From: Arcobacter sp. EP1
GTDB lineage: Bacteria; Campylobacterota; Campylobacteria; Campylobacterales; Arcobacteraceae
Assembly: GCA_001655195.1 (NCBI GenBank)
Contig: LPNY01000158.1
Span: 77,615-141,614, forward strand
Direction: 5' to 3'
DNA: 64,000 bases
How positions within the stretch are numbered: the first letter of the stretch is position 1; each line of letters begins with the position of its first letter. Both the position numbers and the translations under genes were made by a program. Of the stretch, positions 18,852-31,846 are shown in pieces. The notes under the pieces are model-generated. The model did no database searches. It was not told where the DNA came from and saw nothing but the letters and a program-made list of their open reading frames with translations.

Positions 18852-20018
18852 CTACTGTTTAATGGGGTTGAAGTTAATACTAAATGTTGACCCCTCTTTG
18901 CGTTTTGATTTTAGGTGCATGGATAAACCATACTCATGAATAATACGTGTCACAATATCTAGTCCTATACCAAAACCACCTTCATTGTTATCTTTTCCTC
19001 TTTTGTATCGTTTAAAAATATTTTTCTGCTCTTCTTCTGAGATACCAATACCATGGTCTTGTACACTAAAACATCCGTCATTAATAGATACAATAATTTT
19101 TGTATTTCGATTACTATATTTCACTGCATTTGAAAGCAGATTATTAATAATCTTTTGAGTTTTTGTTTTATCCATCAAAATAGTTAATGGCTCTAAAGAT
19201 GTCTCAATCTGAATACTTTTTGCATTAGCAATATCAAAAAAGAAATCCACACTCTCTTGCACTAACACACACAATTCAAAAGATTCATCCATGGATTCAT
19301 CTATATCATTAAATGCTGAGTAATGAATGTCATTATAGACTTGTGAAATCTGTTTCGTACTTCCTAGAATATATTTCATCATCTTTTCAGGGTTTCGTCC
19401 CTGTTTCAAGGTGGAAACAGAAGTTAATAAAACTGAAACAGGAGTATTTAGTTCATGAGCACTATCTTTAATAAACTGATCCATGTGTTCAATCTTTTCC
19501 CTAACCGGTTTTAACAGTAATTTTGCCAATAAATAAGCGATAAAAGTGACAAAAATACCACTAAGAATTAAAATACCTATGATTAAATACTTTAAGCTTT
19601 GTTTATCTTCAATTCCTTGGCAGGTTTCAATAACAATATATTTAATAGGAACCTTTTCGTCTTTAATGGTTGCAATATGATATGAATAGTGTTCTGTGTC
19701 AAACTCAGTTTGTGAGAAATCACTAATGCTCTCTTCTAAATTTGAATAAATTAAATTTTTATCCCTATCATAAAGGGCATATTGTAAACCCTCTGTTTTT
19801 AGTGGTGTAGGCACAAACTTTTGGTGGTTCATATAAGCATTTAAAATATTCTCTTTAATTTCATAAGCACTGTTACTCATCTCCATTGAACAGTGATCTT
19901 CTAACATTTTTTTTTCATTAATATAATAGAAATATAACATCGCTCCAATAAGAGCAACTGCTGATCCTACATAAATAGAGAGAAAACTAAAAAGTGCTTT
20001 TTTTTCATTACTGTACAA
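18852..20018 (-). CDS. Two-component sensor histidine kinase
   Basis: A 388-residue classical kinase: membrane helices at about 12-31 and 145-168 flank a 110-residue periplasmic sensor domain; H-box IKDSAHELNTPVSVLL, N box NNLLSNAVKYS, G1 VQDHGIGI, G2 GGFGIGLDIV. The sensor carries two cysteines, C43 and C133, near the two membrane borders, which could respond to thiol-reactive ligands; that is inference. It starts with TTG at 20018 behind AGGAT and overlaps its response regulator. It is the last gene of the run that starts with the fused ArsS-ArsM gene. Confidence 0.88.
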   Translation of the reverse strand: MYSNEKKALFSFLSIYVGSAVALIGAMLYFYYINEKKMLEDHCSMEMSNSAYEIKENILNAYMNHQKFVPTPLKTEGLQYALYDRDKNLIYSNLEESISDFSQTEFDTEHYSYHIATIKDEKVPIKYIVIETCQGIEDKQSLKYLIIGILILSGIFVTFIAYLLAKLLLKPVREKIEHMDQFIKDSAHELNTPVSVLLTSVSTLKQGRNPEKMMKYILGSTKQISQVYNDIHYSAFNDIDESMDESFELCVLVQESVDFFFDIANAKSIQIETSLEPLTILMDKTKTQKIINNLLSNAVKYSNRNTKIIVSINDGCFSVQDHGIGISEEEQKNIFKRYKRGKDNNEGGFGIGLDIVTRIIHEYGLSMHLKSKRKEGSTFSINFNPIKQ

Positions 20019-20670
20019 ATTTATATCCTATTCCACGTATGGTTATAATGCGCTCCTTACCTAAAAGCTCACGCAAATTTTTTATGTAAACACGTATGGT
20101 TGCATCTGTCGGCATTTCATCATATTCCCAAATATTTTGTAATAATTCATCAGAAGAGATAACTCTATTTTTATGGGTCACAAAATACTTTAAGATATCT
20201 CGCTCTTTTTGAGCAATAGAAATAGAACGACCCTCTTTTTTAACTTCACAGCTAGTTGGAATAAAAGTAATAGAGTCATCAATTGCAATTTCTTCTTCTT
20301 GGTTTATAGAAAAATGCCGACACAACTTTAAAATGCGTTGATCCAACTCCTCAAGGTCAAAAGGTTTTTTAATATAATCATCCACACCACTTTCAAAAGA
20401 CATTTTCAGATGTCGTGTATCTTGATATGCCGTTAAAACAATAGCAGGTGTTTGATCTTTATATTCATCTCGTATAGTTTTTAAAACCTCTATACCACTC
20501 ATAATTGGCGTATTTATATCTAGTAAGGCTAAATCATATTTGTTATCAATTAAATACTCTAAGGCATCTTGGCCGTTTGTAGCTAAGGTAACATCATAAC
20601 CTTCGTGCGTTAAGTGATCTTCAATAATATCACTTAGTGCTAAATCATCTTCTAATAATAAAATTTTCAT
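20008..20670 (-). CDS. OmpR-family response regulator
   Basis: A 220-residue regulator: receiver with EDD, phosphorylated Asp in LALLDINTP and Lys in YIKKP; C-terminal winged helix with QKERDILKYFVTHKNRVIS and ATIRVYIKNLRELLG and the final IRGIGYKF. AAGGAG precedes the ATG. It lies 46 bases after the TVP38 gene on the same strand and so may be co-transcribed with the arsenosugar genes and control them. The binding site is not evident. Confidence 0.92.
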   Translation of the reverse strand: MKILLLEDDLALSDIIEDHLTHEGYDVTLATNGQDALEYLIDNKYDLALLDINTPIMSGIEVLKTIRDEYKDQTPAIVLTAYQDTRHLKMSFESGVDDYIKKPFDLEELDQRILKLCRHFSINQEEEIAIDDSITFIPTSCEVKKEGRSISIAQKERDILKYFVTHKNRVISSDELLQNIWEYDEMPTDATIRVYIKNLRELLGKERIITIRGIGYKFVQ

Positions 20671-20716: not shown

Positions 20717-21406
20717 TTATTTAGTTGATTCTTTTTGCTTATACGCTTTGTATTTTTTATAAGCAACAGGTATCAACATAAGTAATGCCAAAAGAACAAA
20801 AGCAAACAACATCTCTTTTGTAAAAATATCCTCAATAGCATTGATTGTTGCTAGTTGGCTGCCTGCATAGGTATAAACTAAAGAGCCTGGAATAATCCCC
20901 AATGATGTTGTAATAAAAAATGTTCGTAAGTCAACGTGAGTTACCCCACAAAAAAAGTTAACTAAAAAGAATGGAAAGATTGGTAAAAATCGCAATGAAA
21001 AAAGATACTGAAACTTGTTCTCTTCTAACTCTTTATTAAACTTTTCTAACTTTGAAGCATATTTTTCTTGTACTTTATTTCCTACAATGTAACGTGCAAA
21101 TAAAAATGCTAAAACCGCACCTAAGGTTGCTCCAATATTAACAAACACTGCACCAAATAATGTACCAAATAAAAAACCACCTGATAGGGTAAGTACTGTT
21201 GCAATAGGGATTAAAAATGCAACAGAAACAATATAAATAAGTATAAATCCTATCACCGTAACAAGATAATTATTTTCTACAAAATCAGCTAATATACTCT
21301 GCTGTGATTTTAAATTTTCAAAAGTAAAATAACTATCTATCTCAAAAAACTTTGCAATAATAATCAAAAGAACAAAGAGTAAAAGTATTATAATTTTTTT
21401 ATTCAT
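20717..21406 (-). CDS. TVP38/TMEM64 family (VTT domain) membrane protein
   Basis: A 229-residue membrane protein with five or six helices. The VTT/SNARE-associated domain is seen in LIPIATVLTLSGGFLFGTLFG, FARYIVG and the paired LRFLPIFPFFLVNFFCGV and GIIPGSLVYTYAGSQLA. Members are often coupled to a flavin oxidoreductase of the neighbouring type; they scramble or move lipids, or transport small molecules, with the exact role not fixed. It overlaps the oxidoreductase gene by four bases (ATGA). In this locus it could serve export or membrane placement of an arsenolipid or arsenosugar. Confidence 0.88.
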   Translation of the reverse strand: MNKKIIILLLFVLLIIIAKFFEIDSYFTFENLKSQQSILADFVENNYLVTVIGFILIYIVSVAFLIPIATVLTLSGGFLFGTLFGAVFVNIGATLGAVLAFLFARYIVGNKVQEKYASKLEKFNKELEENKFQYLFSLRFLPIFPFFLVNFFCGVTHVDLRTFFITTSLGIIPGSLVYTYAGSQLATINAIEDIFTKEMLFAFVLLALLMLIPVAYKKYKAYKQKESTK

Positions 21407-22830
21407 GACTTTTTTCCTTTAAATAAAGAAGCAAGAGATTTTAATGCTTTTAAAATAGGATTATTTAACAGTCTACTAATATAATATTTTTTTGAAGTCT
21501 GCTTAATAATATCTGCAAAGGTAGGATAGATATAGACCATTTTAGACAGCTTATCAAAAGAGAGTCCAAAGGTTTTAGCCAATTGTAATTGATGAATCAA
21601 CTCCCCCGCTCGCTCCCCTAAAATAGAAGCACCAAGAATTTTTCCACTCTTTGATACAACCACTTTTATTACCCCTGTTCGTTTAACATCTGTATAACCT
21701 CTGTCACTGTTTTTATACTCAAAAGAGATTAACTCAACATCACTGAATTTTTCTTTAGCCTCATCGTAAGTTAACCCAATATGAGCATACTCTGGGTCGC
21801 TGTAAACACACCAACCAATATGGTCATAATTGATTGTTTTTTTAATAGGCAAACCAATATTACTTCCTGCTACAATTGCTTCTTGTTCTGCAATATGGGT
21901 GAACTTATGAGGTGTTGAAACATCTCCTATAGCATAGATATTAGGATTAGACGTTTGTAAATAGGTATTAACTTTTATACCTTTCTCATCAAAATTCACA
22001 TTAGCATGATGTAGATTCAAGTTAGTATTAGGTTTTCTCCCAGTGGCAAAAAGTATCTCTTGGGCAGATAACGATTGCTCTTGGTTATCTTTTTGTATAA
22101 CAAGTTCAACCTCATCATTTTGTGAAATACTTTTTAATTGTAAGTTTTGAACAAAATCAATACCCTCTTGTTTTAAAGAGTCTAATAAAATGTCACTTAT
22201 CTCTTTATCCCCATTTTTTAAAATACCACTACTTCTACTCACTACTGTGACCTTTGAGCCTAAACGGTTAAATGCCGTTGCCATTTCAATAGCAATGACT
22301 CCATTTCCTACAATCAACAAAGATTTTGGAATTTTAGGCAAAGAAAAAATTGTTTCATTGGTTAAATAAGAGACCGTTTCAATTCCTAAAAGGTTTGGAA
22401 TCAAAGGAGAACTCCCTGTTGCAATCAAAAATTTCTTTGCTTCATAAAGATTTTCTTCAACACTTATTTGAGAAGCATTCACAAATTTTGCAAAACCTTC
22501 AATAATAGCAATACCTTCTTTTTCAAAGATATCAGGAGTTTCATGGGAATAGATTTCATCAACAATAGATTTTACGTGAGAGAGCACATTTGAGGTGTCA
22601 ATATCTAAAGCATTAACGGAAACACCATATTTTTCTAAATGTTGCGCTTCATACACTGCACTAGCAGCTTTTAATAAAGTTTTAGAAGGAACACATCCCG
22701 TATGGGTACAATCTCCACCTAGTTTATTAGCTTCTACTATAGCAACACTTTTTCCAAAGGCTTTCACTAATTTAGAAGCAACCAATCCAGCTGGACCACC
22801 TCCAATAATTATTACATCAAACTTTTCCAT
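21403..22830 (-). CDS. FAD-dependent disulfide-type oxidoreductase (mercuric-reductase-like)
   Basis: A 475-residue flavoprotein with the FAD motif IIIGGGPAGLVASK, a redox disulfide GGDCTHTGCVPSK (C41, C46), a NAD(P) motif GNGVIAIEMA, ATGRKPNT and AIGDV. The C-terminal His-Glu pair of glutathione reductase and lipoamide dehydrogenase is replaced (IYPTFADI), and the MerA C-terminal cysteine pair is missing, so neither activity should be assumed. This subtype is typically next to a TVP38 gene, as here. It overlaps the preceding glycosyltransferase gene by 14 bases. It may reduce a thiol, quinone or arsenical in the arsenosugar pathway; inference. Confidence 0.87.
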   Translation of the reverse strand: MEKFDVIIIGGGPAGLVASKLVKAFGKSVAIVEANKLGGDCTHTGCVPSKTLLKAASAVYEAQHLEKYGVSVNALDIDTSNVLSHVKSIVDEIYSHETPDIFEKEGIAIIEGFAKFVNASQISVEENLYEAKKFLIATGSSPLIPNLLGIETVSYLTNETIFSLPKIPKSLLIVGNGVIAIEMATAFNRLGSKVTVVSRSSGILKNGDKEISDILLDSLKQEGIDFVQNLQLKSISQNDEVELVIQKDNQEQSLSAQEILFATGRKPNTNLNLHHANVNFDEKGIKVNTYLQTSNPNIYAIGDVSTPHKFTHIAEQEAIVAGSNIGLPIKKTINYDHIGWCVYSDPEYAHIGLTYDEAKEKFSDVELISFEYKNSDRGYTDVKRTGVIKVVVSKSGKILGASILGERAGELIHQLQLAKTFGLSFDKLSKMVYIYPTFADIIKQTSKKYYISRLLNNPILKALKSLASLFKGKKS

Positions 22831-23464
22831 AATCTTTTGCCTTTAAAAACTGTATTGTATGTGAATTTTTCCATTGATTTTTATACGATACGTAAAATTG
22901 ATCTAAATCCTCTTTGGTATCAATATCATTCATATACATTAACAAATATAACGCTTTTTTGTTTACTGTTTGTAAAGTCTGTTCCAAGACAACTTCACTG
23001 CTCCAAGTTATGTTTTCAAAAACTGTTTCATTAAACCCTTTTTTTGTAAAACCTATGAGATAATAACCCCCATCAAGACTTGGACCTAAAACCATTTCAT
23101 GAGTACTCAATGATTCAAAACTCTTATTCAATAAATCAGTACTAAGATGAGGCGTATCACTTCCAATAAGTACAATTTTTTCATACCCTTTTGCAAACTC
23201 TTCTTTAAAAGCATTTGACATTTTTGCTCCTAAATCATCTCCTTTTTGAAGAAAAGTAGCATCAAAAGAAAAAGCATTCTTATTAGGATGGACATATAAT
23301 GCACAATCAAACCCTTCAACTGTTTGCATTAAATCTTTGATAAAGTTTTCATATAAAGCCAATGCAAACTCATCACTGGTTTGTTTAGCTAATCGTGTTT
23401 TTACAAAACCTAATTTGGGCTCTTTAACAAACATAATAAGACGGTTTTTAATTTTAGGTATCAC
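22817..23464 (-). CDS. TIGR04282-type arsenosugar biosynthesis glycosyltransferase (DUF2064)
   Basis: A 215-residue nucleotide-sugar-transferase-fold protein with the family pattern: FVKEPKLGFVKTRLAKQ at the start, IGSDTPHLS and LGPSLDGGYYLIGF. The family is found with ArsM and ArsS in arsenosugar clusters. It starts with GTG at 23464, directly after the TAG of the arsS-arsM fusion (TAGGTG), so it is certainly co-transcribed and coupled. The precise reaction is not established for the family. Confidence 0.88.
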   Translation of the reverse strand: MIPKIKNRLIMFVKEPKLGFVKTRLAKQTSDEFALALYENFIKDLMQTVEGFDCALYVHPNKNAFSFDATFLQKGDDLGAKMSNAFKEEFAKGYEKIVLIGSDTPHLSTDLLNKSFESLSTHEMVLGPSLDGGYYLIGFTKKGFNETVFENITWSSEVVLEQTLQTVNKKALYLLMYMNDIDTKEDLDQFYVSYKNQWKNSHTIQFLKAKDYGKV

Positions 23465-25468
23465 CTAACAGCATCCACTACTTGTTATATTTGTTTCACT
23501 TTCAATTTTTTGTCGCTCTTGGGTTGCTAACGTTGCACACCCTAAGAACTCTCCAAAGTGTTGTTTTGTGTCGCCTATTACCTCAAAATAGTTTTTATAA
23601 CGAGTTTCACTTAACATTTTAGCAGTATTTTTACACACATGTTCAGCACGGTTCAATTCAAAGAGATGATTACTATCAAGCTCAAACTCTCGTTCACACT
23701 CCTCAATACCTCCCTTGTAAATAGCAAATTGACCATAATCCTCACACTTTTCATCTAAATCATCAAGTTTCCATAAACGGTATGTTAGGGAATAAAACTG
23801 GGTATTACCTACTAAATTTTTTACTTCATCATCAGTAATATCAATAGGCTTTGAGCTAACCAGACGAGGTTCTTTAAAACCTGCTTCTTTTGCAAAAGTT
23901 AAAAAGTCATTCACGTACAATGCCCCACCTAAACACTCACCATGTAAGATTTTATCTTGACGCACTGTTGAACTAAGACGTCTAGATGCGTATACATCAC
24001 TAAAATAAAACTCGCCCCCATTTTTAAGCAATGTAAAAATCTTTTTTAAAATTGCACGTTTATCTTCAAGTAAATTAATCACACAATTTGACGTAACAAT
24101 ATCTAATGAGTCAGGAAGAAAGTGTTGATCAATATTTTCAATAGTATCATGGATGAAATTCGTATTGATTTTATTATGTTCGAAACGTTTTTGTTGACTT
24201 TTTTGGTGTTTAATTGCCACATCAATTTGATTTTTGGTCATATCAATACCGTTAACTTTTCCATTTTCTCCCACAAGTTTTGACAGAATATAAACATCAC
24301 GCCCACTGCCACATCCTAAATCTAAAACTATTTGGTTCTCTAAAACATGGGGTATTGGTGAACCACATCCATAGTATTTATCTTGTATCTCTTCTGCAAC
24401 ATAAGGCAACACATCTCTAACGCGTTTTGGAATCATATCCAAGGTACAACATGCTGTCGTTTTTAAATCCTCACTACTGTTTAAGACTTCGCCATAATAC
24501 TCTTTTGCATTCTCTTTTGCATCAAAACTTTCAACAGTTTCAACAACTTCTCCATGGCACGAACTACCACTATTAACGGTACAACCATAACAGTGTTCAT
24601 CAAAACTGATTTCAGGGGCAAAACTATCAAAATCAATCTCCCAAAAAGGAGTTGTTTCATAACCAATAATTGGCTTATCTAATGCCATGTTAAAATCACA
24701 ATCAAAAACTTTTCCCTCATAATTGATACTCAATACTCGTTTACACATCACTTTATCTAGAGTTTTCACATTGTATTGGCTCTTTAATTTATCCATATAT
24801 TCATCATAAAGCCCATGATTTTTCAAATCAGTTTTAAACCGTTTAATTGGCATATTAACAATCGTTGCAAGAGAGTTAAACTCAATATTATATTTCTCTT
24901 TTAAAATCTTTTTATATTCCAGTTGCAATTCATTTTGAGGCTTGGGTAAATAAGTACCCACTGGGTTATAGACTAAATCCAGTTGTAAGTCACCTTTGGC
25001 AAATCCTAAAGCATTTAGTTTTTGCAATACAGTAATAGATTCATCAAAGACACCAAAACCTCTTTGTTTTGTTGTTAAATCTTCAAAAACACTAGGAAGT
25101 GATGCAATTACTTTGACATTAAAAAGTTTATATAGTTCTAAAAAATGTGCATATTTGGGATCTTCTAAAACAGTGAGAGAGGTTCGTACTACGATATTTC
25201 GTCCCGCATCAGAAAGTTTAGTTAAAAAAGTGGTAAAACTATCATTCATCTCTGGGGTTCCACCAGTAAACTCAATAGTTTTAATATCTAAGGTTAAAAG
25301 TTTATCTAAAATTTTATTTGCGGTTAAAAGAGTCATGTTATTTTGCCCCTTTGGGCTTGCTGCCACATGACAGTGAGTACAGGTTTGATTACACAAATCT
25401 CCTAGGTTTATTTGAATCAAATCAAACTTATCTTTTAATATTTTTTTTACTTTCCAAAAATCACCCAT
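23465..25468 (-). CDS. Fused ArsS (radical SAM) - ArsM (arsenite methyltransferase)
   Basis: A 667-residue two-domain enzyme. Residues 1-310 match ArsS: radical SAM cluster C26-x3-C30-x2-C33, IEFTGGTPE, and Cys-rich end with C242, C257, C293, C296, C304 (HCYGCTVNSGSSCHG; some relatives carry selenocysteine near this motif). Residues 335-667 match ArsM: ACCTLD (C340, C341), YYGCGSPIP, SAM motif LDLGCGSGR (382-390), C462 in SNCVIN and C512 in HGECLGGAL, covering the known arsenic-binding cysteines, and a CC terminus. ArsM methylates arsenite; ArsS joins dimethylarsinous acid to a SAM-derived adenosyl unit. The two are usually separate genes. AAGGAA precedes the ATG. First gene of the operon. 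Confidence 0.92.
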   Translation of the reverse strand: MGDFWKVKKILKDKFDLIQINLGDLCNQTCTHCHVAASPKGQNNMTLLTANKILDKLLTLDIKTIEFTGGTPEMNDSFTTFLTKLSDAGRNIVVRTSLTVLEDPKYAHFLELYKLFNVKVIASLPSVFEDLTTKQRGFGVFDESITVLQKLNALGFAKGDLQLDLVYNPVGTYLPKPQNELQLEYKKILKEKYNIEFNSLATIVNMPIKRFKTDLKNHGLYDEYMDKLKSQYNVKTLDKVMCKRVLSINYEGKVFDCDFNMALDKPIIGYETTPFWEIDFDSFAPEISFDEHCYGCTVNSGSSCHGEVVETVESFDAKENAKEYYGEVLNSSEDLKTTACCTLDMIPKRVRDVLPYVAEEIQDKYYGCGSPIPHVLENQIVLDLGCGSGRDVYILSKLVGENGKVNGIDMTKNQIDVAIKHQKSQQKRFEHNKINTNFIHDTIENIDQHFLPDSLDIVTSNCVINLLEDKRAILKKIFTLLKNGGEFYFSDVYASRRLSSTVRQDKILHGECLGGALYVNDFLTFAKEAGFKEPRLVSSKPIDITDDEVKNLVGNTQFYSLTYRLWKLDDLDEKCEDYGQFAIYKGGIEECEREFELDSNHLFELNRAEHVCKNTAKMLSETRYKNYFEVIGDTKQHFGEFLGCATLATQERQKIESETNITSSGCC

Positions 25469-25533
25469 AAGTTTCCTTAAAAAATTTATAAATAATACAC
25501 TATAATTGTTTACTCTGTGTAAAGGTGTTAAAT

Positions 25534-26217
25534 ATGCAAGTCTCTATTATCATTCCTGTTTACCATGAAAACAATATCAATAAAATTATTGATTCAATTA
25601 TATCCAATGAAACATCTATTGATTATGAAATTATTGTTGTGGATATTGAAGATCAATCAACAATTAAACTCATTGAGAATGAAGAGGTAATTACAACCAC
25701 AGCGCCACAAGGAAGAGCTTTTCAAATGAACAAGGGCTTTAAACTCGCAGGTGGTGACTATTTACTTTTTTTACATGCAGATACACTCTTACCTAACAAT
25801 GCCTTGGAATGTATTGTTAAAACCTTAGATGCTCCTAGTCCATATAGTGCAGGTGCTTTTGATATTAGTATTGATACTGATGATAAAATTTTAACAAAAA
25901 TATCAAAAATGGCATCATGGCGATCAAAGTTTTTCAAACTTCCATATGGAGACCAAGCTATTTTTGTTAAAAAAGAGGTTTTTGAAAATATTGGAGGATA
26001 CAGAGAAATTTCACTCATGGAAGATGTGAACTTTATGCAAAAACTCAAACGTAAAAAACAAAAAATTCAAATTCTTGAAGAACAAATTATTACAAGTGCT
26101 AGACGTTGGGAAAAGAATGGAGTTATTAAAACAACATTAACGAATATCGCTTTACAGCTACTCTATTTTGCAGGTGTTCACCCCAATACTCTCGCCAAAT
26201 ACTATTATAAAAAATAA
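25534..26217 (+). CDS. TIGR04283-type arsenosugar biosynthesis glycosyltransferase (GT2)
   Basis: A 227-residue family-2 glycosyltransferase: SIIIPVYHENN at the start, PQGRAFQMNKGFKLAGGDY and LLFLHADTLLP (the DxD-like metal site), and GGYREISLMEDVNFM. The GRAxQMNxG and LHADT pattern is the signature of the TIGR04283 group, found with ArsM/ArsS. It diverges from the fused arsS-arsM gene across a short promoter region. I start at ATG 25534 (AAAGG upstream) rather than the GTG at 25525. A TATAAT lies at 25501-25506. Confidence 0.88.
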   Translation: MQVSIIIPVYHENNINKIIDSIISNETSIDYEIIVVDIEDQSTIKLIENEEVITTTAPQGRAFQMNKGFKLAGGDYLLFLHADTLLPNNALECIVKTLDAPSPYSAGAFDISIDTDDKILTKISKMASWRSKFFKLPYGDQAIFVKKEVFENIGGYREISLMEDVNFMQKLKRKKQKIQILEEQIITSARRWEKNGVIKTTLTNIALQLLYFAGVHPNTLAKYYYKK

Positions 26218-26223
26218 GAAACG

Positions 26224-26868
26224 TTAGTTTTTCCATCCATCATAATGCACCAACTCTTCTAAAGGCATTCTATCTTGCCACCCTGCTTTTTCTAACTCAG
26301 GTTTTTCATGAAAGTGAGAGACTTTTCCAATACATAAATAAGCAACAGGAACAATATGTTCAGGGATATTCAAGGCTTCTTTTAAAGCTTCATGATGAAT
26401 AATACTTACCCAACCAACACCTAAATTTTCTGCACGTGCAGCTAGCCATAACGTCTGAACAGCACACACGCTAGAGTATAAATCCATCTCTAAATTGGCA
26501 GTTCTTCCAATAACCACATCACCTGTACGGCTTCTATCGCAAGTAATACAAATACCAATTGGAGCTTCAGTAATTCCTTCTAGTTTTAATGTTTTATAAA
26601 CTTCTTGACGATCACCTTCGAACATCTCTTTTGCTTCATTGTGAGCAACTTCAAACCCATCTTTGATTTGTTGTTTAACCTTGTTATTTTTAACAACAAT
26701 AAAATCCCACGGCTGCATAAAACCAACACTAGGAGCATGGTGTGCAGCATCAAGTAGTCGTGCTATTACTTCATCATCAATAGAGTCACTTAAAAACTCC
26801 CCTCTTGTATCACGTCTGTTATAGATTGTTTTATAAACAGCATCACGTTCTTCTTTAGTAATATTCAT
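26224..26868 (-). CDS. bluB: 5,6-dimethylbenzimidazole synthase
   Basis: A 214-residue nitroreductase-fold flavoprotein. The FMN-binding start YNRRDTRGEFLSDSIDDEVIA and AAHHAPSVGFMQPWDFIVV, then GITEAPIGICITCD and LAARAENLGVGWVS, are the BluB pattern. BluB splits FMNH2 with O2 to make 5,6-dimethylbenzimidazole, the lower ligand of vitamin B12. No other cobalamin gene is in view. AAGGT precedes the ATG. Convergent with the glycosyltransferase (6-base gap). Confidence 0.9.
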   Translation of the reverse strand: MNITKEERDAVYKTIYNRRDTRGEFLSDSIDDEVIARLLDAAHHAPSVGFMQPWDFIVVKNNKVKQQIKDGFEVAHNEAKEMFEGDRQEVYKTLKLEGITEAPIGICITCDRSRTGDVVIGRTANLEMDLYSSVCAVQTLWLAARAENLGVGWVSIIHHEALKEALNIPEHIVPVAYLCIGKVSHFHEKPELEKAGWQDRMPLEELVHYDGWKN

Positions 26869-26948: not shown

Positions 26949-27557
26949 CTAGTTTAAAAGTTCTTGTACTATAGTATAGAGTGCTTTTTCTGCTTGTTTG
27001 AGACTTTTACCAAAAACAACTACCCCTTCAAAGTGCCCTTTCATAACAAAGGCATTATTGAGCATTGGGTTAATATCTTTGTAAATATCACGTACATCTT
27101 CAACCATTTCTGGCGTACCATAAGGGGTATCATTGGTACTTAAATAATCATTTTCTAACATAAAACGCCACAACTTTTCATTGTGCACATGAATAACTGC
27201 ATTAATTCTTGCATCTAACTCATAAATACATGCGTGAGTTATGGCTTCACTACTTGGCTTTGAAACACCAATAGCTGTTGTAGTAAAAGTCTTAAAGTCA
27301 ACATTTTTCACTAAAGAGTAATATTTTGGGGAGAGTTTAGGTAATTCACCTGTTTGAGTTGCCGTAATGACAAAAGCATTTTTCTTTGTGTAACGAAGAG
27401 ATATATTCCCATATCCTATTCCGTTATCATATGCACCTATTAAGCCAAGAGAAAAAAGACGCTCTCTTGTTTTTTCTATTTTTTGACACTCTTTTTTTGC
27501 AACTTCATCTGTTTGAGTAAATTGCAAAGAGTATTTAACAACACCATCATCAATCAT
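26949..27557 (-). CDS. Class II aldolase/adducin family protein, candidate methylthioribulose-phosphate aldolase
   Basis: A 202-residue zinc aldolase. The motifs are YGNISLRY (phosphate loop), SSEAITH (catalytic Glu), VIHVHNEKL (two Zn His) and MKGHFEGVV (third Zn His). Members split sugar phosphates into DHAP or, in MtnB, dehydrate methylthioribulose 1-phosphate. Here the gene follows mtnK and mtnA on the same strand with the HD-GYP gene between, so the substrate is plausibly 5-methylthioribulose 1-phosphate. Whether it acts as aldolase (DHAP shunt) or dehydratase cannot be told by eye. It begins five bases after the phosphodiesterase stop. Confidence 0.82.
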   Translation of the reverse strand: MIDDGVVKYSLQFTQTDEVAKKECQKIEKTRERLFSLGLIGAYDNGIGYGNISLRYTKKNAFVITATQTGELPKLSPKYYSLVKNVDFKTFTTTAIGVSKPSSEAITHACIYELDARINAVIHVHNEKLWRFMLENDYLSTNDTPYGTPEMVEDVRDIYKDINPMLNNAFVMKGHFEGVVVFGKSLKQAEKALYTIVQELLN

Positions 27558-27562
27558 AAATT

Positions 27563-29368
27563 TTAATCCACATATTTATCTCGTATTTTCAAAAACTTAT
27601 CTAAATTTTCAAAAAATAGGTCAACCAATTTAGGTTCAAAGTGTTTTCCCCTTTGGTTTCTAAAAAGCTCTAAGATTTTCTCTAACTCCCACGACTTCTT
27701 ATAACACCTATCACTTCCCAAAGCATCAAAAACATCTGCAATAGCAGTAATTCGTCCAAAGATATGAATCTCTTCTTCTTTTAAACCTTTAGGATAACCT
27801 GTTCCATTCCACTTTTCATGATGTTCTAAAGAGATAATTGCAGCGGCTTGTAAGATTTCACGGTTTGAAGTTTTTAAGATATTATAGCCAATTTCACTAT
27901 GCTCACGCATTATATCCCACTCTTCAGAAGTAAGTTTGCCAGGTTTATTTAAAACAGAATCAGGAATACCAACTTTTCCAATATCATGCATAGGAGAAGC
28001 CATAAAAAGATGACTAATTTGTTCTTTATCTAATCCATACAAAGTAGCAAGAAGTTTCGAGTACTCTGCAACTCTCTTAACATGATTTCCAGTCTCTTTA
28101 CTTCGTGTTTCTCCTATCTCCCCCATACGGTAGATAATTTCACGTTGGGTATCTTCTAACTCTTGATGTAAAGAGATAACCGAAGTAATATCATGCCTAA
28201 TAGAAAGAAACTCAGAAATATTATTCTCTTTATCAAAAATAGGAGCAATCACCGTATCAACATAGTAGGATTTTCCACTTTTATTTTTATTTTTTAGTGT
28301 TCCAGACCAAACCTTCCCTGCAAGAATTGTTTGCCACATATTTTGATACACTTCATCAGCAGTATCTTCATGACGAACAATACTATGAGGGCTTCCAATG
28401 AGTTCCTCTTTAGAGTATTGACTTATTTTTAAAAACTTTTCATTTACATACGTTATTATTCCAAAAGGGTTTGTTCGTGAAACAATATTGTTTTCATTAA
28501 CAATACTTTCATACTGAGAAAAGTTTTTCAAAGCATCTTTTAAAGAAGCATTCTTTTTAACGTTTTGTTTTTGTAAAAAGCGCTTGGTATTTTCTAATGC
28601 TGTTATATCATTTCGAATGGCAATAAACTCAATAATGTTTCCATCTAAATCCAAAATAGGCTTAATCAAACTATCTACATAATAAGACTCACCTTTTTTA
28701 CTTCGATTTTTAATATTACCTCGCCAAATTTGTTTTTTGACTTTTATGGTTCTCCAAATATCCTCAAAAACTGCTCTTGGCGTATCAGGATGACGTATTA
28801 GGTTATGGTTGTTTCCAATTAATTCTTCTTTTTTATACCCTGAAATTGTCATAAAAGGTTCATTGACATACGTGATAATACCATTTGAATCAGTTTTTGA
28901 AACAATCGATTTTTCATCTACAATATTTTTATACTGCTCAAGAATATTTTTTAAATTCTCTTTCTCTTTTAAAGTAGCAATATTTTTTGCATAACGTAAC
29001 AGTGTTGTAAAAAGTTTTTCAATATCAATAGGTTTTAAAATAAATTTTGAAATACCCACTTCAATAGCTTGTATAAAATAGTCACTACTGTTATGGGCAC
29101 TGGTAATAAAAATAGGAAGATTCTCATTATCTAGACGAATATTTTTTGCTAATTCTATTCCATTCATTTTTGGCATGGTAATATCAGTAATCACCATATC
29201 CATCTCATGCTGTTTGTATAATTCTAAGGCTTCTTCTCCATTAGAGGCTAAATAGAGTTTTCCGACAATATCTTTTAAAAAGGATGCTATTTGTTCTTGA
29301 AGTTGTGGTTCATCCTCAACATATAAAAGGGTTATCTCTTTTAAATATTTCAAATCATCACTATTCAT
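27563..29368 (-). CDS. Receiver-PAS-PAS-HD-GYP c-di-GMP phosphodiesterase
   Basis: About 601 residues: an N-terminal receiver (VEDEPQLQEQ, phospho-Asp in VITDITMPKMN, Lys in FILKPIDI), two Aer-like PAS domains with near-identical sequences (SKTDSNGIITYVNEPFM and SRTNPFGIITYVNEKFL, each followed by RH-D-TP/A), and an HD-GYP domain (MHDIGKVGIPD, HHEKWNGTGYPKGL). It hydrolyses c-di-GMP, with its activity probably set by phosphorylation and PAS ligands. Start at ATG 29368 behind GGAG; a GTG lies one codon earlier. It sits between mtnA and the aldolase gene with short gaps. Confidence 0.92.
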   Translation of the reverse strand: MNSDDLKYLKEITLLYVEDEPQLQEQIASFLKDIVGKLYLASNGEEALELYKQHEMDMVITDITMPKMNGIELAKNIRLDNENLPIFITSAHNSSDYFIQAIEVGISKFILKPIDIEKLFTTLLRYAKNIATLKEKENLKNILEQYKNIVDEKSIVSKTDSNGIITYVNEPFMTISGYKKEELIGNNHNLIRHPDTPRAVFEDIWRTIKVKKQIWRGNIKNRSKKGESYYVDSLIKPILDLDGNIIEFIAIRNDITALENTKRFLQKQNVKKNASLKDALKNFSQYESIVNENNIVSRTNPFGIITYVNEKFLKISQYSKEELIGSPHSIVRHEDTADEVYQNMWQTILAGKVWSGTLKNKNKSGKSYYVDTVIAPIFDKENNISEFLSIRHDITSVISLHQELEDTQREIIYRMGEIGETRSKETGNHVKRVAEYSKLLATLYGLDKEQISHLFMASPMHDIGKVGIPDSVLNKPGKLTSEEWDIMREHSEIGYNILKTSNREILQAAAIISLEHHEKWNGTGYPKGLKEEEIHIFGRITAIADVFDALGSDRCYKKSWELEKILELFRNQRGKHFEPKLVDLFFENLDKFLKIRDKYVD

Positions 29369-29411
29369 CACTACACTCCACTTTCTCTTTTAATAATTAT
29401 ACAAACTCTAA

Positions 29412-30488
29412 TTATACATTTAGTTTAAACATATTATTAATTGCTTCTTCATTCGTAGCACAAACACCTTTTTCCGTTATTAATCCCGTGACTAATCGAG
29501 CAGGTGTGATATCAAAACCATAATTAACTGCCTTTGATGTTTTTGGCGTAATTAACAACTCTTCAACAACACCCTCTTTATTTAACCCACGAATATATTT
29601 CACCTCATCTTCACTTCGCATCTCAATAGGAATATCTTTGACTCCATCTCTAATATCAAAATCCAATGTTCCTTCTGGAATTGCCACATAAAAAGGAATA
29701 TTGTTATCGTTTGCAGCAAGAGCTTTTAAATAGGTTCCTATTTTATTTGCTACATCTCCATTGGCACTAACTCTATCCGCACCAACAATACAAACATCCA
29801 CCATTCCTTGTTGCATCAAATATCCACCGGTGTTATCAGGAATAATCGTATGCTCAACTCCATCTTGTGTTAACTCCCATGCAGTTAAATTTGCCCCTTG
29901 GTTTCGAGGTCGTGTTTCATCAACCCATACATGAACATCAATACCTCTTCGTTTTAATTCATAAATAGGTGCTAACGCTGAACCATCATCAACAATTGCT
30001 AACCACCCTGCATTACAATGGGTTAATACATTAATAGAAGTTTTTCCTTTTTCTTGCATAATCTTTTCAAAAATATCAGCACCATAAGAAGCAATTTTTG
30101 AACTTCGTTCACTATCTTCATCACAAATTTGAATAGCTGTTTTTCGTGCAACTTCTAACAAATCATCTTGGGCATTTAAAAGTGCTTCTAACATAATATC
30201 TACTGCCCACATTAGATTCACTGCCGTTGGTCGTGATTCTCGAATTGCTTTTGATTTTGTAACAACTGCTTTAATATCTGCCTCTTCTTTAACGGCTAAA
30301 TAAACCCCTAACGCCCCGATATTTCCGATAACTCCAGCCCCTCGTACAATCATATCTTTAATTGCTACAATAGCATCATCAGCTGTTTTTAAAACAATTG
30401 TCTCTTCTATAAATGGAAGTTTTGTTTGATCAATAACTTCCACATAACCTTCCTCATTTACCCAAAACGCTCTATACTCTCCATTCAT
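29412..30488 (-). CDS. mtnA: S-methyl-5-thioribose-1-phosphate isomerase
   Basis: About 358 residues with the eIF2B-like fold. Family motifs: VRGAGVIGNIGALG, TVNLMWAVD, LTHCNAGWLA (catalytic Cys), VWVDETRPRNQGA, IVGADRVSANGDVANKIGTY (catalytic Asp). It converts methylthioribose 1-phosphate to methylthioribulose 1-phosphate. The ATG at 30488 overlaps the mtnK stop by four bases with AAGGA upstream; a GTG two codons earlier is an alternative. It works directly after MtnK. Confidence 0.94.
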   Translation of the reverse strand: MNGEYRAFWVNEEGYVEVIDQTKLPFIEETIVLKTADDAIVAIKDMIVRGAGVIGNIGALGVYLAVKEEADIKAVVTKSKAIRESRPTAVNLMWAVDIMLEALLNAQDDLLEVARKTAIQICDEDSERSSKIASYGADIFEKIMQEKGKTSINVLTHCNAGWLAIVDDGSALAPIYELKRRGIDVHVWVDETRPRNQGANLTAWELTQDGVEHTIIPDNTGGYLMQQGMVDVCIVGADRVSANGDVANKIGTYLKALAANDNNIPFYVAIPEGTLDFDIRDGVKDIPIEMRSEDEVKYIRGLNKEGVVEELLITPKTSKAVNYGFDITPARLVTGLITEKGVCATNEEAINNMFKLNV

Positions 30489-31711
30489 TGACACTCTTCC
30501 TTAATAATTGTAATTACTTCTTCTATATTTTGTATTTTTTTATTATTTTTCACAAATCGTTTTGCAATCTCTAATGTTATAGTAATCGCTTTATCTTTAA
30601 TCGCTTTATCTTCAATTTCACGAATATCGGCAACTCCTGCAATACCAAACATGCGTCGTGCCATTTTACACCCTGCAAAACCAACACTATCTCTTAGTAT
30701 TTGTACCATAAACTCTGATTTATACTCTTGAAGGCTTACTTCACTAATAAACCCATCAGTGATTAAGGATGACTCTTCTTGTGCATTCCAAAGTGCTAAA
30801 AACTTTGTTTCAAATTCAACTAAAATTGTCTCAATAGTATTGATAATCCACTCAGGGTATTCTGCTTTTGACCCCAGTGCAATGTGAGAAACATATGACA
30901 TGGTTAAATTTCCTAACAGTGCTCCAATATCAAAACCAAAAGGTCCTACAAAAGCAAACTCAGGGTCAATTACAAAAGTCTCTTTTTCATTTAACATAAT
31001 TGAACCTGTATGTAAATCACCATGAATCAAAGCATCATTTTGTGTCATAAATTTATACTTTAATGCTAAAACCTCTTTTTTAAACTGCATATCGCTAAAA
31101 AGTTCTTGTGCAATCTCATGGCCATGAGAATATTCATCATTTGTTTCATGTTCCATAAAAGCAAAAGTAAATACAAAGTCTTCCGTTAATTTACATAACT
31201 CTGTATTTGAATTAAAACTATCAATCAAGGCTCTTTTTTGTGTCGAATCTAAATGTAATGAAGATGTTTTAAATAGATTTTGAGCTAAATAAGTTGAGAT
31301 ATGCTCTGCAAATTTTGGATAGACTGTTTGCTCAATCATTCCTTGTCGCATAATAATGTGTTCACCTAAAAACTGCATTATAACGGCGCTCATCTGCTCG
31401 TTAGTATCATAGAGTTTTGGTACATACTCACTGGTAATTTGTGCAAAGCTACTAAGCGCTCTTATCTCATAAGTCATTCGCTCTTTACTTAAAGGATACT
31501 CCTCTCCAACACATCTAAGATATGGCACTGCTTGCTTTAAAATCAGTGCTTTTTTAGGATCACTTTGTGATTTTATAATAAAAACATAGTTTAAATTTCC
31601 ATCCCCTATTTCAGCCACTTCTAGTGAATCATTTGAAAAGTACGCTTTAATTGAATCAATACTATACAAGTATTCAACAATATTATCTTTATCTAAAATT
31701 TTATATTCCAT
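30485..31711 (-). CDS. mtnK: S-methyl-5-thioribose kinase
   Basis: About 408 residues of the APH-like kinase fold: ALILKQAVPYLRCVGEEYPLSKERM (family-specific), catalytic HGDLHTGSIM and IDPEFAFVGPFGFDIGALLGNL (metal-binding Asp). MtnK phosphorylates 5-methylthioribose, the product of MTA/SAH nucleosidase action on methylthioadenosine. I start at the ATG at 31711, which has AAAGGT at correct spacing, not at the ATG nine codons upstream. First gene of mtnK-mtnA-HD-GYP-aldolase. Confidence 0.92.
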   Translation of the reverse strand: MEYKILDKDNIVEYLYSIDSIKAYFSNDSLEVAEIGDGNLNYVFIIKSQSDPKKALILKQAVPYLRCVGEEYPLSKERMTYEIRALSSFAQITSEYVPKLYDTNEQMSAVIMQFLGEHIIMRQGMIEQTVYPKFAEHISTYLAQNLFKTSSLHLDSTQKRALIDSFNSNTELCKLTEDFVFTFAFMEHETNDEYSHGHEIAQELFSDMQFKKEVLALKYKFMTQNDALIHGDLHTGSIMLNEKETFVIDPEFAFVGPFGFDIGALLGNLTMSYVSHIALGSKAEYPEWIINTIETILVEFETKFLALWNAQEESSLITDGFISEVSLQEYKSEFMVQILRDSVGFAGCKMARRMFGIAGVADIREIEDKAIKDKAITITLEIAKRFVKNNKKIQNIEEVITIIKEECQ

Positions 31712-31846
31712 ACATTGACCTTTTTCAAAGTTTTTCATTGAGATAACTTCATATTATTTTTTAATGAAGTAATAAAACTAGATTGTAACAAAATTTAAAT
31801 TTAAACCTTTAATCGATATAGTTATCCAATATACAGGAGTGTTTTT

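Follow-up and report, generated by a model that had tools for sequence, protein, structure and literature searches.

We examined a 64,000-nucleotide stretch of the genome of Arcobacter sp. EP1 (contig LPNY01000158.1, positions 77,615 to 141,614), hereafter the window, from an assembly (label G000) of 3.0 Mb in 229 contigs. Positions 20717 to 26217 of the window hold a probable arsenosugar locus with a fused ArsS-ArsM gene and a module of a flavin adenine dinucleotide (FAD) oxidoreductase and a TVP38 membrane protein, a variant of a known locus type. Its features, given in window coordinates, are as follows.

23465..25468, minus strand: fused ArsS-ArsM gene, 667 amino acids, with a TIGR04167 match and an ArsM half matching solved structures
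24533-25468, minus strand: ArsS part (residues 1-312), a radical S-adenosylmethionine (SAM) enzyme
about 23537-24517, minus strand: ArsM methyltransferase part (residues 318-644)
22817..23464, minus strand: TIGR04282 protein, CofC/DUF2064-like, with TIGR04282, DUF2064 and CofC Pfam matches and a match to 3cgx
21403..22830, minus strand: FAD pyridine-nucleotide disulfide-type oxidoreductase, with Pyr_redox_2, the redox motif GGDCTHTGCVPSK and a basic C-terminal tail
20717..21406, minus strand: TVP38/TMEM64 (DedA superfamily) membrane protein, PF09335
25525..26217, plus strand: TIGR04283 family GT2-type glycosyltransferase, divergent, with TIGR04283 and Glycos_transf_2 matches
25469..25524: divergent intergenic region of 56 bp, a candidate shared promoter with a sigma-70-like match not above chance

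The minus-strand genes are tightly packed. In order of transcription, their open reading frames (ORFs) run from 25468 to 23465 (667 amino acids), 23464 to 22817 (215), 22830 to 21403 (475) and 21406 to 20717 (229), with junctions of 0 bp (no gap), a 14-bp overlap and a 4-bp overlap. The plus-strand ORF (25525-26217, 230 amino acids) points away from the ArsS-ArsM ORF, 56 bp from it, and passes the TIGR04283 cut-off (227.5 bits versus 182) with an additional Glycos_transf_2 match. A preliminary description of this DNA had claimed both the one-strand packing with zero gaps or overlaps and the divergent TIGR04283-type glycosyltransferase, and both claims held. Two of its names need amending. ArsS and ArsM are both present on one strand, as it stated, but as a single ORF rather than two genes, and of its two glycosyltransferases TIGR04283 is indeed a glycosyltransferase family, whereas the "DUF2064-type" protein is CofC/nucleotidyltransferase-like. 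One sigma-70-like match (10/12, plus strand, 25477-25506) falls inside the divergent intergenic region, but with 25 such matches in the scanned region versus 30.3 in shuffled sequences it is not above chance. A terminator scan of the region likewise gave counts no higher than in shuffles.

The fused gene joins two recognizable enzymes. Its ArsS part matches the TIGR04167 profile over residues 12-307 (343.1 bits versus a cut-off of 300) and carries the radical SAM CxxxCxxC motif, with C26, C30 and C33 invariant across 11 aligned rows. The ArsM half finds its best solved match in 5evj (E 8e-91), and its four cysteines are aligned and kept relative to the solved ArsM proteins 5evj and 4kw7. We term this half ArsM-like, and not a member of NF008823, NF038099 or NF040538, because it scores under their curated NCBIfam cut-offs (147.1 versus 263, 91.2 versus 400 and 119.2 versus 500, respectively). 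The fusion is not a local frame artefact, since the same single ORF recurs in genome G195 and at loci L031 (Thermodesulfovibrionales) and L033 (uncultured). We make no claim on channeling between the two parts, given that the AlphaFold2 model (predicted local distance difference test, pLDDT, 88.2) has a predicted template modelling score (pTM) of 0.59 and a linker (306-313) below 50. ArsS is rare in the phylum of the window, Campylobacterota (13 of 298 genomes, TIGR04167 at E 1e-60), and only the window genome and G195 among these have ArsS and ArsM in one ORF. On the ArsS tree, these two group with L031, L032 and L033 (support 99/94), apart from 11 other rows of their phylum, which suggests transfer between phyla. 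At L033, the fusion is directly followed by YedF (selenium metabolism; L033:2135-2749).

The TIGR04282 protein scores 176 bits against its profile (cut-off 134), and its sole solved match is 3cgx, a putative nucleotide-diphospho-sugar transferase (E 5e-32). It is probably a nucleotidyltransferase for the arsenosugar. At 10 of the 12 other ArsS loci of the phylum, TIGR04282 is fused to an APH-kinase-like part, an arrangement suggesting that a sugar 1-phosphate is made first and that nucleotidyl transfer follows.

The FAD enzyme resembles mercuric reductase (MerA) and dihydrolipoyl dehydrogenase but falls under the curated cut-off of all 25 models listed, including TIGR02053 for MerA (370.7 bits versus 454.45) and TIGR01350 for dihydrolipoyl dehydrogenase (385.1 versus 408.8). 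Its Pyr_redox_2 domain is clear (218 bits versus 26.1), and its best sequence match in the PDB is the mercuric reductase 5x1y (E 8e-79). In every FAD row that reaches the region, the window included, YPT replaces the HPT of lipoamide dehydrogenase (Lpd), so that the catalytic histidine becomes a tyrosine, which is residue 435 in the window enzyme, and alignment to 5x1y places this residue at the tyrosine of mercuric reductase. These same rows all end in a basic tail, none with a C-terminal cysteine pair; L113 and L154, both MerA-type, terminate in SCC and two further residues, and the C-terminus of the window enzyme has no cysteine. In a tree that omitted fam_L170 as too short, the FAD rows form a clade (100/100) with two MerA-type rows as its sister. 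The generic rows otherwise lie at a distance, save for one on a long branch (L151) that falls inside. Linkage to ArsS arose or was lost repeatedly, because the ArsS-linked label requires at least nine changes on this tree. The tyrosine and the placement beside MerA would suit an enzyme that reduces metal(loid)-thiol species. Within Campylobacterota, the window enzyme has matches (E 1e-70) in 4 of 298 genomes, namely its own, G195 (58%) and two at 34-36%, one of which (L113) ends like MerA; the two strong matches come from the same two genomes that bear the ArsS-ArsM fusion. A TVP38-FAD fusion protein at L071 (6682-8832) passes the TIGR01350 cut-off (413.7 versus 408.8) yet has YPT and no catalytic histidine, so genes of this type are prone to misnaming.

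The TVP38 protein has a VTT domain (PF09335, 97.5 bits versus 33.9) and does not reach the cut-off for the undecaprenyl-phosphate transporter UptA (NF052604, 33.1 bits versus 250). Among the fetched loci, its best BLAST relatives are TVP38 proteins from further ArsS loci, some of them the TVP38 portion of a TVP38-FAD fusion. We use the term module for an FAD enzyme of the clade that adjoins TVP38, as in the window, where the two genes overlap, or is fused with it. A VTT gene lies within 2.5 kb of the FAD-family gene in 30 of 37 cases and of generic relatives in 0 of the 61 rows used. For a model of the L071 fusion (pLDDT 91.3, pTM 0.77), the 50 structure matches listed comprised only oxidoreductase chains covering one part.

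Comparison of ArsS neighbourhoods showed that both genes recur beside ArsS. Across Campylobacterota, where the preliminary description had proposed to look, the 12 other ArsS loci contained TVP38 in 11, TIGR04282 and TIGR04283 in 10 each, and ArsM in 2; the FAD type occurred once (G195). Among the best-scoring 80 of at least 585 named ArsS loci, TIGR04282 and TIGR04283 were present in 37 each, TVP38 in 20, ArsM in 18 and the FAD type in 16. All 16 FAD-type loci also had TVP38, eight of them as single TVP38-FAD proteins. By record titles and tree labels, they belong to Omnitrophota, Myxococcota, Poribacteria, Latescibacterota, Bdellovibrionota, Planctomycetota and Pseudomonadota, which with the phylum of the window makes eight phyla. 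The Omnitrophota locus L042, for example, carries TIGR04283, an unassigned 151-amino acid protein, FAD, TVP38, ArsS and TIGR04282 on one strand. Among cultured bacteria, Methylotetracoccus oryzae (L072) has a linked module. Absences are unreliable in these counts because short contigs cut many loci.

This linkage exceeds chance expectation. In 49 ArsS-bearing named genomes (those of the 50 longest of the 80 loci, minus L047), a score gap separates the FAD family from its generic relatives (E 1e-98 or better versus 1e-84 or worse, with a broken copy in G318 as the exception). Random placement in these genomes would put 0.19 FAD-family and 0.80 VTT genes in ArsS loci, the latter figure being slightly low as it is based on the 150 VTT rows listed; the observed numbers were 11 and 12 loci. 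Co-occurrence pointed the same way. In the class of G325 (274 genomes), 138 genomes carried ArsS (E 1e-60) and 135 the FAD family (E 1e-90), with 105 having both, 30 FAD only, 33 ArsS only and 106 neither (odds ratio 11.2). For glutathione reductase, a control from the same superfamily, the corresponding counts were 100, 71, 38 and 65 (odds ratio 2.4), and the FAD-ArsS odds ratio was 10.8 within genomes that have glutathione reductase and 9.5 within those that do not. Of the 105 genomes with both, 33 had the FAD gene no more than 10 kb from ArsS, compared with 2 of 95 for the control among the matches listed (150 rows, of more that exist). Equal frequency away from ars genes without conserved linkage, the outcome that the preliminary description had set against its own proposal, is thus not what we found. 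In the class of G320 (143 genomes; ArsS at E 1e-40, FAD at E 1e-85), 12 had both, 32 FAD only, 6 ArsS only and 93 neither (odds ratio 5.8, P 0.0009), or 12 of 18 ArsS genomes versus 32 of 125 without an ArsS match. Across eight phyla, FAD and TVP38 genes recur in physical linkage with ArsS, and they co-occur with it beyond the same-superfamily control. The earlier proposal that both belong to the arsenosugar pathway is supported by this pattern, not proven, and genomes that have ArsS or the FAD family alone, detailed below, speak against an obligate role.

The ArsS loci of Campylobacterota vary in content. No ArsM (NF008823, E 1e-20) was found in 10 of the 13 ArsS genomes (L019-L021, L023-L025 and L027-L030), and nine of these ten, all except G167, keep the TIGR04282-kinase fusion, TIGR04283 and two TVP38 genes beside ArsS. 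For such loci, the arsenosugar name may be wrong, or methylated arsenic may be imported. In G167, a metallophosphoesterase-like domain is fused to the N-terminus of ArsS (L024:9605-11494); both families are separate neighbours in what we here call Campylobacter-type loci, a name coined in this analysis. Fe-S proteins of the CCG type lie between or beside TVP38 genes (L026:5110-6204 and L019:8528-9505) and are similar to one part of the disulfide oxidoreductase/dicluster protein NF045663; they are possible stand-ins for the FAD enzyme.

With moderate confidence, we favour the reading that this is an arsenosugar biosynthesis locus in which FAD-TVP38 serves as an accessory membrane module. The chemistry of ArsM and ArsS is established outside this analysis, as known from citing papers or general background. 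The fused enzyme would methylate arsenite to dimethylarsenite and then add the 5'-deoxyadenosyl group of SAM, making it a ready tool for forming key C-As bonds with a single protein. Once adenine is lost, activation of the arsenoribose to a nucleotide sugar would fall to the TIGR04282 protein, and the TIGR04283 protein would pass it on to glycerol or a lipid acceptor. Anchored at the membrane by TVP38 and by its own basic tail, the FAD enzyme would draw on NAD(P)H to maintain methylated arsenicals in trivalent form for use by the fused enzyme. TVP38 is related to lipid scramblases and would move the arsenical or an arsenosugar lipid across or within the membrane. The scheme builds on the families, the fusion, the recurrent linkage, the FAD-TVP38 pairing and the tyrosine substitution described above, and within it we infer the order and activity of the two TIGR steps, the substrate of the FAD enzyme and the cargo of TVP38. 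That the module acts in making or exporting arsenolipids is a reasonable guess. A bolder version, which we regard as distinctly unlikely, casts FAD-TVP38 as the membrane step so far missing from arsenosugar-lipid synthesis in bacteria. In this version, a MerA-like reductase driven by NAD(P)H, either docked on a TVP38 scramblase or fused with it, would reduce dimethylarsenicals at the membrane and deliver or flip an arsenosugar phospholipid. If true, arsenolipids would gain a genetic basis and TVP38 proteins a substrate.

Several findings weigh against the favoured reading. The module is not necessary, as the FAD family is absent from 33 of 138 (class of G325) and 6 of 18 (class of G320) ArsS genomes, nor is it exclusive, as the family also turns up in genomes that lack an ArsS match, 30 of 136 in the first class and 32 of 125 in the second. 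Within the class of G325, the majority of TVP38-FAD fusions from ArsS-positive genomes sit on other contigs than ArsS, and 20 such neighbourhoods had no ArsS, ArsM, TIGR04282 or TIGR04283 on the stretch examined. The same was true of 14 of 16 fusion neighbourhoods from genomes without an ArsS match; the other two (L123 and L124) have the fusion beside an ArsS relative and an ArsM that missed the threshold. FAD-TVP38 occurs without ArsS genes nearby and may therefore do something broader. In addition, the co-occurrence counts are uncorrected for phylogeny or completeness, the control is itself associated with ArsS (some background association), the named loci are the best-scoring part of a larger set, and the profiles labelling them were trained on these very loci. 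Metal(loid) reduction is only suggested, since the C-terminal cysteine pair of MerA is absent, and the activity, substrate and cargo given to the module are deduced from sequence. Alternatively, the module could be a general unit for membrane redox or lipid homeostasis in aerobic bacteria, one that frequently moves together with arsenosugar genes without acting on arsenicals. Such a unit would fit the FAD-bearing genomes without ArsS, the background seen with glutathione reductase, and a published interpretation that assigns fusions of COG0398 with an oxidoreductase to aerobic metabolism (Todor et al. 2023, PMC10127716; this and the other papers cited are drawn on for the accessible part of their text). 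We nonetheless consider it unlikely, given that close linkage to ArsS is far more frequent than in the control (among its matches listed) and recurs in varied gene orders, as fused or separate genes. The L123 and L124 fusions do adjoin an ArsS relative, and the unlinked fusions have no strong recurrent partner, with no other gene recurring in more than five of their neighbourhoods.

A role in efflux and detoxification only, with no lipid made, is doubtful. Here, the FAD enzyme would reduce thiol-bound methylarsenicals, and TVP38 would export them or a finished water-soluble arsenosugar, which agrees with the MerA-sister position of the clade, its tyrosine at the MerA position, and the proposal of DedA proteins as transporters (titles cited in PMC10127716). 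DedA relatives of tested function, however, are lipid flippases or scramblases (PMC10127716), and Synechocystis, with arsM slr0303 and Tvp38 protein Slr0305, makes arsenosugar phospholipids (PMC11009773). It is very improbable that the product of the locus is a ribosylated compound of another element and that its arsenosugar names mislead. The ArsM-less ArsS genomes of the phylum and the selenium protein after the L033 fusion would fit such a product, but in the window an in-frame fusion joins ArsM to ArsS, and this ArsM retains the four cysteines of solved arsenite methyltransferases.

Genes flanking the locus were considered as members and rejected. Two-component genes at 20008-20670 and 18852-20018, on the same strand and 46 bp beyond TVP38, were candidates for a pathway regulator. 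Similar genes lie near the G195 locus, but they are not orthologous to those of the window, because the G195 regulator finds its best match elsewhere in the window genome (50%) and the window copy ranks third (43%). As sources of a sugar kinase, MtnK (30485-31738), MtnA (29412-30494) and a class II aldolase (26949-27557) were set aside since their linkage is not conserved (0, 1 and 0 matches among 128 loci scanned). MtnK (TIGR01767) and MtnA are real family matches in the profile search, and the set, which occupies one strand of 26949-31738 with an HD-GYP-like regulator gene in between, possibly serves salvage of methylthioadenosine or 5'-deoxyadenosine. BluB (26224-26868) had one weak match among the 128 loci scanned. 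Elsewhere, in three genomes (G579:C21, G464:C5 and G441:C75), an FAD-family gene without ArsS linkage has a glutathione reductase gene as a close neighbour, about 1 kb away or less.

We take slr0304 to be the ArsS gene of the cyanobacterium Synechocystis. An arsenosugar pathway of SsArsM and SsArsS has been described there (Xue et al. 2019, as cited in PMC8552651), arsM is slr0303 (PMC4010505), the Tvp38 protein is Slr0305 (PMC3836016), and arsenosugar phospholipids have been reported (PMC11009773). Judging by tag numbers, the genes of slr0303 and Slr0305 would be close neighbours, and locus-tag numbers from papers are the whole of our cyanobacterial evidence. Like the window, this pathway combines ArsM and a radical SAM ArsS, with Tvp38 close by tag number; unlike it, as far as the papers tell, the window has ArsS and ArsM in one chain plus an FAD gene. 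The arsinothricin cluster arsQML (PMC8552651) also contains both ArsM and a radical SAM enzyme that works on As(III), but its ArsL transfers an aminocarboxypropyl group, and the accessible description mentions no TIGR04282, TIGR04283, FAD or TVP38 protein.

No publication linking TVP38 with arsenosugars, or TVP38 with arsenic and an oxidoreductase, turned up in a search that left most of the subscription literature uncovered, and the accessible literature searched named no gene for arsenosugar steps beyond ArsS or for arsenolipids. Fusions of COG0398 DedA (TVP38) with PF07992/PF02852 have been reported (PMC10127716), the same two families that are overlapping neighbours in the window. That paper links them to aerobic metabolism, its main text does not contain "arsen", and its accessible part gives no known substrate for TVP38-type DedA proteins or the fusions; we find the fusion type near ArsS in 8 of the 80 best-scoring loci. 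The recurrent link of FAD-TVP38 with ArsS makes the late arsenosugar or arsenolipid genes and the substrate of TVP38 both testable questions.

Two further systems share part of the window arrangement. MerA (5x1y and relatives) and the window FAD enzyme have in common the tyrosine at the Lpd histidine position, a sister-clade relationship and the best PDB match, but MerA has a C-terminal cysteine pair and the window enzyme a basic tail and a sub-cut-off TIGR02053 score. The Campylobacter-type loci (L019-L023, L025 and L027-L030), like the window, cluster ArsS, TIGR04282, TIGR04283 and TVP38. They differ in having another ArsS lineage, a TIGR04282-kinase-like fusion and two TVP38 genes, mostly without ArsM, and in place of the FAD enzyme they carry an Fe-S CCG protein.

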